Origin: Thermoanaerobacterales bacterium | GTDB taxonomy: Bacteria; Bacillota; Thermosediminibacteria; Thermosediminibacterales; Tepidanaerobacteraceae | Length of the DNA stretch: 64,000 nucleotides | Assembly: GCA_012840135.1 (NCBI GenBank) | Contig: DUMA01000018.1 | Location: forward strand, 1 to 64,000 | Direction of reading: 5' to 3' | Part shown: positions 41,715 through 54,850 of the stretch, piece by piece | How the letters are laid out: every line of letters starts with the position of its first letter | How positions within the stretch are numbered: position 1 is the stretch's first letter | The notes under the pieces: model-generated | Databases searched by the model: none | What the model was told of the DNA's origin: nothing | Seen by the model: the letters and a program-made list of their open reading frames with translations, nothing else | Translations under genes and position numbers: made by a program

Positions 41715-41844
41715 AAAACACATTTGACCTTGCAGATACATTTTCGCGGACCCGGATGGAGATTTGCTCCCAAACCCCCATCCCCACCGGAAGGCGAGGG
41801 TTAGCCTTTGACGGGCCCTAGAAATTGTCACTTCAGCGGTAGCG

Positions 41845-42228
41845 CTAGCATAAGGGTTCGGGCCTCTGTATAAAGTGGATTATATTTCCCTCGATGTCTT
41901 TGAAGAATACGGTTTTTACGCCCTTTGCATTTGTGCTCAATTCTGTCAGGATTTCTACGTTATTCTTTAAAAGATTTTCATATTCCTTTTCTATATTGTC
42001 TGTACCGAAAGCCAGATGCCTTATACCCTGGTATTTGTTATTTACACTCTCACTTGAAACTTCCGCAGGATATATTTCGATTAAACCGCCATCCGGTAAC
42101 ATTAGAAAAAAGGTGGGTTTTTCTTTTTTGTTGTCATACACCACTTTGAGATTAAAAAGCCTGACATACCAGTCTTTTAACGCCACCGTGTCTTTTGCGC
42201 AAATTCCCACATGTTCCAGGTTTAACAT
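41845..42228 (-). CDS. VOC/glyoxalase-family protein
   Basis: A 127-residue single-domain protein of the vicinal oxygen chelate fold. HVGICAKDTVALKDWYVRLFNLK, RHLAFGTDNIEKEYENL and FFKDIEGNIIHFIQRP give the His and Glu metal ligands of this superfamily (glyoxalase I, epimerases, resistance proteins). ATG 42228 follows AGGAGAGG. A perfect palindrome lies in its promoter region. Substrate unknown. Confidence 0.85.
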   Translation of the reverse strand: MLNLEHVGICAKDTVALKDWYVRLFNLKVVYDNKKEKPTFFLMLPDGGLIEIYPAEVSSESVNNKYQGIRHLAFGTDNIEKEYENLLKNNVEILTELSTNAKGVKTVFFKDIEGNIIHFIQRPEPLC

Positions 42229-42271
42229 ATGAATCCTCTCCTTTCATGAAAGTTTTGGCAGGTTCATATTA

Positions 42272-42286
42272 TGAGACGACGTCTCA
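42272..42286 (-). promoter_or_regulatory. TetR-type palindromic operator near the VOC gene
   Basis: TGAGACG-A-CGTCTCA is a perfect 15-base palindrome, 44 bases upstream of the VOC start, just downstream of a minus-strand TATTAT-like -10. Its size and form resemble TetR-family operators. No TetR gene is visible in the window. Confidence 0.55.
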
Positions 42287-42483
42287 CTATAATATACATT
42301 CGCTATAAAATTTTAAAATCCTTCCTATTCCCAATATTTTATTTCAAGCTCAGAGGACAGCGAGACCGTGGGGGAAGTTGTGTTTAGTAGAAACCGCCTG
42401 TTTTGACAATTATTGCAATTTACCTTATTGAATGATAATATAAAATTAAGAATACGAAAGTTTTAAAATTAGGTGGTGGCAGG

Positions 42484-43284
42484 GTGATTTTTGAAGATAT
42501 AGATAAGTTAAAATGTAGACTGGATAGTTTGAGGCCTATTCATCCAGAGATAATGGAAATAATAGATAAAAAATTTAAGATCGATTGGACATACAATTCG
42601 AATGCTATTGAAGGCAGCTCTCTTTCACTTCAAGAAACATCATTTTTTTTGCAGTATGGACTTACTTCTAAGGGAAAGCCGTTAAAAGACTACCTGGAAG
42701 CACAAAATCATGCAGAGGCTATTGACTGGTTAAGGGACATCATTAAAGAGAAAAAGCCTATTACCGAAGGCCTAATAAAAGAGCTTCATGCCCTTCTCTT
42801 TAAAGGTATAGACTATATCTGGGTAGGTCCCCCAGATATTAGGGTGAAAAAAAAGATATCACCAGGGAAATATAAGACCGAGCCTAATTATGTTATCACA
42901 CTAGAGGGTGAAATTCACTATTATTGTGAGCCTATTAGAGTTCCGGAAGAAATGGAAAAGCTGGTGAAAATGATAAACAACTCCCTGTATCATCCTGTAG
43001 AATTAAGTGCCAGAGCCCATTACAAGCTGGTTGCAATCCATCCTTTTGATGATGGCAATGGAAGAGTAGCAAGGTTGCTCATGAATTTGATCTTAATGAA
43101 ATATGGTTATGTTCCCGTAGTTATAAAGCAGGAAAATCGAGAGGATTATTATAAAGCTTTGATGAAAGCCGATGCGGGAGAAATGGACGACTTTATTCAG
43201 TTAGTAGCCGCGGAAGAAAGAAATAGTCTCAGGCTAATATTGGAAATTATAGAAAAACATATGGAGAAACGAGGCCAGATATGA
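42484..43284 (+). CDS. Fic-family protein
   Basis: A 266-residue Fic-domain enzyme that probably transfers AMP (or another phosphoryl group) to target protein hydroxyls. The active motif HPFDDGNGRVARLLMN lies near residue 183, complete with catalytic His. The N-terminal segment TYNSNAIEGSSLSLQET contains the (S/T)xxxE(G/N) type autoinhibitory helix before the Fic core, so activity is likely self-restrained. GTG 42484 follows AGGTGGTGGCAGG. It stands alone, not with an obvious antitoxin, just before ssrA. Confidence 0.92.
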   Translation: MIFEDIDKLKCRLDSLRPIHPEIMEIIDKKFKIDWTYNSNAIEGSSLSLQETSFFLQYGLTSKGKPLKDYLEAQNHAEAIDWLRDIIKEKKPITEGLIKELHALLFKGIDYIWVGPPDIRVKKKISPGKYKTEPNYVITLEGEIHYYCEPIRVPEEMEKLVKMINNSLYHPVELSARAHYKLVAIHPFDDGNGRVARLLMNLILMKYGYVPVVIKQENREDYYKALMKADAGEMDDFIQLVAAEERNSLRLILEIIEKHMEKRGQI

Positions 43285-43297
43285 AATCTGATATTTC

Positions 43298-43326
43298 TTG
43301 ATAACAGGTGTCTTTTGTTGTATAAT
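43298..43326 (+). promoter_or_regulatory. Promoter of ssrA
   Basis: TTGATA (43298-43303), exactly 17 bases, TATAAT (43321-43326). Transcription would begin near 43333, leaving a short 5' leader to be cut at 43349 by RNase P. Confidence 0.85.
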
Positions 43327-43348: not shown

Positions 43349-43968
43349 GGGGGCGTTTGGTTTCGACGGGGGCGGCAGGGATAAAAGCTGCAGGTCGAGC
43401 TTTCCGACTCGTAAATCCGGAAGCGTAAAATAAACGCCAAAGACGAATTAGCACTCGCTGCCTAATTAAACGCAGCGCGCCCTCCCCGGCGGTGCCCGGC
43501 GGCCGGGAAAAGGGTGTCATAAATCCGGGATCTTCCCGTAGTGCGGCTCTGGCACTATAGGAGAAAATTAAAGAGCTGGCCGAACTTTTATCCTGCTCCC
43601 GGGAGAAAAGACGGCGAGAAACAAAACGGGAGATAAGCCTGTAGACGCTTTTATCGATGTGCCTTCGGACAGGGGTTCGATTCATAAAGAGTCGCCCCGT
43701 ATGGTGACATACGGGTGAAAACTCGGCTTTATCGGTGAAACCTTCATCACTGCTTGTAATAGTGATATGGTGACACCGAGGGGTATGAGGCGCAAGCTTA
43801 CAGCCCTGTATCGACTTATAGGTTCCCTAATAATCATAGGGAGTACTAGGATAGAAGCATCAAGCAAAAATAAGCTTCTATAACACGCCGGGTGGCTTTG
43901 CAGTAAGCCAAAGATATAGTCAGCACCGGTATGAAAATACCGGACTATGTGTCCCCTCGCCTCCACCA
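43349..43968 (+). ncRNA. ssrA: tmRNA with intron in the T-loop
   Basis: Transfer-messenger RNA, which frees stalled ribosomes and tags the unfinished protein. The 5' end GGGGGCG (43349-43355) pairs with CGCCTCC (43958-43964, one G-U), and an encoded ACCA ends at 43968. The 5' half shows TTTGGTTTCGACGGGG as in other tmRNAs. The tag frame 43436-43465 codes AKDELALAA then TAA. The T-arm is broken: AGGGGTTCGAT (to 43681) and TCCCCT (from 43952) are separated by 270 bases. Joined, they give a normal stem with loop TTCGATT. Without the intron the RNA is 350 nt, a normal size. A terminator follows. Splicing is required for a functional tRNA-like end. Confidence 0.95.
43682..43951 (+). ncRNA. Group I intron within ssrA, no ORF
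   Basis: The 5' exon end CGAT pairs with the internal guide: 43678-43683 with 43689-43694 form P1, with the diagnostic U-G pair (U43681 with G43691) at the 5' splice site. The intron ends in G (43951). P2 is an 8-bp stem with a GTGA loop (43696-43703 with 43708-43715); P8 is TGGCTT/AAGCCA (43893-43910); P9 is CCGGTAT/ATACCGG with a GAAA loop (43926-43943). The conserved S element AAGATATAGTC is at 43911-43921 and can form P7 with GACTTATA (43813-43820, one bulge). An extra hairpin CCCT/AGGG (about 43825-43841) resembles P7.1, hinting at subgroup IA. There is no homing endonuclease; at 270 nt it is a minimal ribozyme. Confidence 0.9.
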
Positions 43969-43978
43969 AAAGAAAATT

Positions 43979-43999
43979 ACACCCGCGAGGGTGTTTTTG
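43979..43999 (+). terminator. Terminator of ssrA
   Basis: ACACCC (43979-43984) pairs with GGGTGT (43989-43994), loop GCGA, then T-rich sequence. Confidence 0.85.
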
Positions 44000-44022
44000 T
44001 TTAATGCAAGGGGGTCTTCCGG

Positions 44023-54619: not shown

Positions 54620-54712
54620 AGATAATTTTTTTTCAAATCAAAAAAACTCTTGCCTACATGAGATAACTGTGGTAATATAAACTTAAGTTAATACTTGGTC
54701 TTTTTTTGAAAA

Positions 54713-54829
54713 CCTTCAGGGCAGGGTGAAATTCCCGACCGGCGGTAAGCCTTCAGGCGAGCCCGCGAGCTTTTTATAAGCCGATCCGGTATAAGCCGGA
54801 GCCGACAGTAAAGTCTGGATGGAAGAAGG
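54713..54829 (+). promoter_or_regulatory. FMN riboswitch (RFN element)
   Basis: Conserved core CAGGGCAGGGTGAAATTCCC followed by GACCGGCGGT, then AGCCCGCGAGC, GATCCGGT and AGCCGACAGTAAAGTCTGG; P1 is CCTTC (54713-54717) with GAAGG (54825-54829). It senses FMN and lowers ribU expression when flavin is plentiful, through the terminator that follows. Confidence 0.97.
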
Positions 54830-54850
54830 TGTATTATTGTTGCATTTTTT

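Follow-up and report, generated by a model that had tools for sequence, protein, structure and literature searches.

Intron-form tmRNA genes, in which a group I intron interrupts the T-loop, are known from C. botulinum (Williams 2002, as cited in PMC11915505). PMC11915505 describes 883 intron-form genes among 97,179 unique tmRNA sequences, distributed over 21 phyla and most of them interrupted at loop position 7, with a mean intron length of 293 bp in the founding set and a homing endonuclease in 36 of the intron-form tmRNAs. The C. botulinum intron, 287 nt long, self-splices in vitro, the substrate oligonucleotide being CGAU (PMC2729099).

We analysed a 64-kb stretch of DNA (hereafter, the window) from a Tepidanaerobacteraceae bacterium, a member of the Bacillota, in which the tmRNA gene ssrA carries a 270-nt insert. 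By its sequence, this insert belongs to the group I introns and is an ordinary member of the documented class, matching it in every tested respect. The two share the gene, a short ORF-less intron, a Bacillota host, a U at position -1 facing a G in P1, the terminal G and, if position 7 (of 1-8) in PMC11915505 is read as the gap between loop nucleotides 6 and 7, the insertion site; sequence divergence is the only difference that we found. The initial annotation had called introns at this position known but rare. Known they are, and rare as a fraction of all tmRNA sequences (PMC11915505), yet this is the main documented site and is widespread in Bacillota. Compared by description rather than by alignment, the C. 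botulinum intron, from another Clostridia family, has the same exon site, the same 5' exon end CGAU and a similar length (PMC2729099). The intron of Tepidanaerobacter sp. GT38 (L064), from the same family as our bacterium, occupies the same site with 78% identity over the region searched; it is 287 nt long and differs mainly in the P5 extension, P7.1/P7.2 and the P8 loops.

Organization of the tmRNA gene

The coordinates of the gene and of its intron are given in Table 1. The complete tmRNA of the initial annotation is borne out by a match of RF00023 to positions 43356-43684 that covers the full model (154.2 bits, E 3.7e-62) and by both gene ends, which can be read in the sequence, with the gene segments in the standard order. 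The 5' acceptor strand GGGGGCG (43349-43355) pairs with CGCCTCC, after which ACCA ends the gene at 43968; the resulting 7-bp stem has a G-U at its third pair, the alanine identity element. The tag frame, this alanine-type tRNA-like domain and the T-loop interruption between nucleotides 6 and 7 make the locus an intron-form (position 7) tmRNA gene. We found no sign of the permuted form, composed of two pieces with the 3' tRNA half first (RF04321, 23.6 bits, below 47). The promoter-like element ends 22 nt before ssrA. ARAGORN reported no tmRNA in the window, presumably because of the split T-arm.

Table 1. Features of the ssrA locus in the window
Feature	Position	Strand	Basis
Promoter-like TTGATA-17-TATAAT, 5' of ssrA	43298-43326	+	11/12 consensus match, consensus only
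ssrA (tmRNA) gene with its intron and the encoded CCA	43349-43968	+	RF00023 match; ends from sequence
tmRNA exon 1, ending ...AGGGG-TTCGAT	43349-43681	+	Sequence and comparison with intron-free gene
Tag frame GCC...TAA, AKDELALAA*	43436-43465	+	Translation, with the resume codon assigned from other tmRNAs by analogy
P1, CGAU|UC with GAGUCG, U-G at splice site	43678-43694	+	99% of cells paired
Group I intron of 270 nt without homing endonuclease ORF	43682-43951	+	R1 model, covariation, empty site in G004
P2, GUGA loop	43696-43715	+	Two-sided changes in 7/8 pairs
P3 (43722-43727 with 43887-43892)	43722-43892	+	Two-sided changes in 4/6 pairs
P4-P5-P6-P6a domain	43732-43807	+	47-intron alignment
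P7, guanosine-binding helix (43813-43816 with 43918-43921)	43813-43921	+	Homology only
P7.1 and P7.2	43823-43881	+	47-intron alignment
P8	43893-43910	+	Two-sided changes in 6/6 pairs
P9.0 (GCA/UGU), P9 (GAAA loop), terminal G 43951	43923-43951	+	P9.0: 2/3 pairs covary
tmRNA exon 2, T-CCCCT-CGCCTCC-ACCA: last T-loop base, T-stem and acceptor 3' strands, CCA	43952-43968	+	
Rho-independent terminator-like hairpin and T tract, 3' of ssrA	43979-44003	+	

Two further features of the window lie outside the gene. About 1.6 kb with glyoxalase-like and Fic-domain genes (41715-43293) adjoins ssrA upstream and is missing at the corresponding site of the congener G001, and an FMN riboswitch (117 bits) is located at 54708-54834.

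Identity and structure of the insert

The exon junction can be read directly from a relative of a different genus in the same family, G004, whose intron-free tmRNA gene (L024) reads GGTTCGATTCCCCTCGCCTCCACCA, that is, the window with the insert taken out. This agrees with the splice sites (43681/43952) of the initial annotation and with its statement that removal of the insert restores the T-loop TTCGATT. Over 350 nt, the G004 gene and the spliced window gene are 94.0% identical; the agreement rises to 99% in the last 84 nt of exon 1 and is complete in the final 25 nt of the G004 gene, which match the predicted spliced product throughout. No sense ORF longer than 45 codons overlaps the intron, and a 95-aa antisense frame over it has no match in Pfam; the intron encodes no endonuclease of the kind that characterizes mobile (homing) group I introns.

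The general group I model RF00028 gave the insert 30.3 bits (E 3.2e-5, searching 2.5 kb), short of its 50-bit gathering score, which led us to test the group I identity further. A covariance model (R1) built from 32 tmRNA introns of other bacteria, taken from the pattern search described below and leaving out those of the window, G001 and Tepidanaerobacter, found the insert as its sole match in the 64 kb, with 246.5 bits (E ~1e-80). With ARAGORN silent and RF00028 short of its gathering score, annotation can easily overlook such genes. We also searched with a pattern that joins the P7 strand AAGATATAGTC, the conserved element singled out in the initial annotation, to the tmRNA 3' end: it occurs once in the window and in none of 100 shuffles, and across genome contigs it retrieved 62 stretches, at least 57 of which carry an intron at the same site, after TTCGAY. 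The stretch from Sphingomonas (L066) matches by chance. A blastn search of the intron against phage and plasmid records returned no relative.

Over an alignment of 47 same-site introns, the thirteen helices that we assigned are 92.9% paired, as opposed to only 32-42% in slid structures, and both partners have changed in 45 pairs. The covariation score is 0.446, against 0.189 when shuffled and at most 0.118 when slid; in 500 shuffles the observed values were never reached. Covarying pairs occur in P2, P3, P6, P8 and P9.0, and the P8 that the initial annotation had proposed, like its GNRA loops on P2 and P9, holds. The U-G pair at the 5' splice site and the terminal G, which it had also pointed out, are each present in 47 of the 47 introns, as expected for group I. 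The P7 pairing GACU/AGUC is invariant in all 47, and P7 therefore provides no covariation support. The group I core is present in full (P3, P4, P5, P6, P7 and P8, with the conserved P7 strand), and P7.1 and P7.2 stand between P7 and P3 as in subgroup IA3, although this feature, a hallmark of subgroup IA, marks that subgroup generally. IA3 is also the subgroup label of the C. botulinum tmRNA intron.

The fact that tmRNA genes are common integration sites (PMC11915505) could suggest an insert of another type, for instance the remnant of an integrative element. Such an origin is contradicted by the R1 score, the covariation and the splice-site pattern, and this genome has no att-like duplicate of the gene 3' end, so we give it practically no credit.

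Proposed splicing and the unspliced precursor

We consider it very probable that the locus is an intron-form tmRNA gene whose resident intron is excised by a guanosine-initiated reaction that restores the T-loop. A sigma-A-type promoter of its own would drive this single-copy gene, yielding one precursor in which P1 would form between the intron and the 5' exon end CGAU. Cleavage after the U of CGAU would then be effected by an exogenous guanosine held in P7, and the released 3' OH of the exon would attack behind the last G of the intron. This would join ...TTCGAT to TCCCCT..., restoring the T-loop with a junction that would read GGTTCGATTCCCCT in a product 270 nt shorter. The internal guide has a GA that is complementary to the UC at the start of the intron and also to the UC that opens the 3' exon, and it could presumably pair with the two in turn, first as an extension of P1 and then as P10. 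Guanosine-dependent self-splicing of this intron, and its operation in this cell, appear likely by analogy with the C. botulinum intron. Lacking a homing endonuclease, the intron would be a resident element, probably immobile now, that persists because splicing is efficient and the mature tmRNA is needed.

The initial annotation held that, without splicing, the alanine-accepting end cannot form. Our results speak against this: the insert lies inside the T-loop, with the strands of the T-stem and the acceptor stem flanking it, so both stems should form before splicing. Thermodynamic folding of the 620-nt precursor indeed showed P1 coexisting with both stems, at pairing probabilities of 0.91-1.0 for the acceptor stem and 0.78-0.90 for the T-stem. 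Splicing would thus restore the T-loop and the elbow of the molecule, on which SmpB sits, rather than the acceptor end.

The same annotation tied ribosome rescue to ribozyme splicing; we found no evidence that splicing regulates the rescue. On a regulatory reading, the intron would be a switch whose conditional splicing, for example in response to GTP or stress, sets the amount of active tmRNA and gates the rescue. The intron does interrupt an RNA that is important for the cell, and P1 and the tRNA-like stems could fold together in the precursor. However, we detected no extra aptamer or riboswitch around the intron, relatives of the same family live without it, and a known member of the class self-splices plainly (PMC2729099), which makes a switch very unlikely and plain excision of a resident intron the preferred reading.

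Relatives and a second smpB-ssrA fragment

The intron is carried by the congener G001 and by G003 (78% identity over the region searched), whose locus is contained in the Tepidanaerobacter sp. GT38 contig NZ_JAFFJA010000124.1 (L064); this containment assigns the window to the Tepidanaerobacteraceae. Only exon matches were found in the family members G004, G005, G006, G007, G010, G011 and G012 and in the searched genomes of the sister family. This patchy presence could reflect either loss or gain. In a phylogeny with other tmRNA introns, those of the window, G001 and Tepidanaerobacter group together, on a weakly supported branch (86/29). To the catalogued class the window adds a clearly delimited case for which a close relative lacks the intron; such a natural pair within one family would lend itself to comparisons of fitness or splicing. 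A genome of the same phylum, G028, has two tmRNA genes over the cut-off, on its contigs C3 and C9.

SmpB is encoded in the same genome as the window (contig C35). In addition, the 3,775-bp contig C56 (L118, G000:C56:3117-3775) carries a second smpB and, at the contig end, a further ssrA of which only the 5' part is present, the one additional copy that we found in the genome. The SmpB encoded there shares 67% identity with the resident protein, rnr is duplicated as well at 64% identity, and the smpB-ssrA locus is absent from G001; for these reasons C56 is most likely a contaminant in the assembly, although it could in principle represent another tmRNA. The fragment is what might favour a scenario in which a degenerate, non-splicing insert has inactivated ssrA while another copy supplies tmRNA. 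Besides the probable contaminant nature of C56, this is opposed by the intact helices of the catalytic core and by the complete, single-contig genome of G001, which has one SmpB and, over the cut-off, one ssrA, in intron form. Moreover, the introns of the window and G001 differ at 3 of 270 positions (98.9% identity) while their flanking genes are only 84-88% identical, which argues that the intron is under constraint. An inactivated ssrA is therefore highly improbable, and a functional intron-form gene remains our interpretation.

Intron-form tmRNA genes at other loci

Five IMG/VR viral contigs (L130, L132, L133, L134 and L135) carry tmRNA-like genes with the T-loop split at the same site by short (~205 nt) group I introns, four of which score 78-86 bits with RF00028; L132 comes from a 76-kb contig with phage-like genes, and a further viral contig, L131, has only a 3' end. 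Introns may spread by way of such viral genes; the accessible part of PMC11915505 makes no mention of phage tmRNAs in intron form. In a Gracilibacteraceae MAG (L073), a second copy of intron and exon 2, devoid of exon 1, is found ~2.67 kb downstream of the intron-form ssrA, and an AAA ATPase and a RloB gene stand between the two, which suggests that a small defence-type island inserted at the intron-bearing tmRNA and brought its own intron and 3' exon. In an Elusimicrobia MAG (L093, 2747-3478), a LAGLIDADG-like ORF with a weak Pfam match (E 0.0019) seems to interrupt a tmRNA-type intron. Finally, the intron-form tmRNA of L101 (784-1229) has a C in place of the U before the splice site and an A opposite it in P1, a variant noted in PMC11915505.
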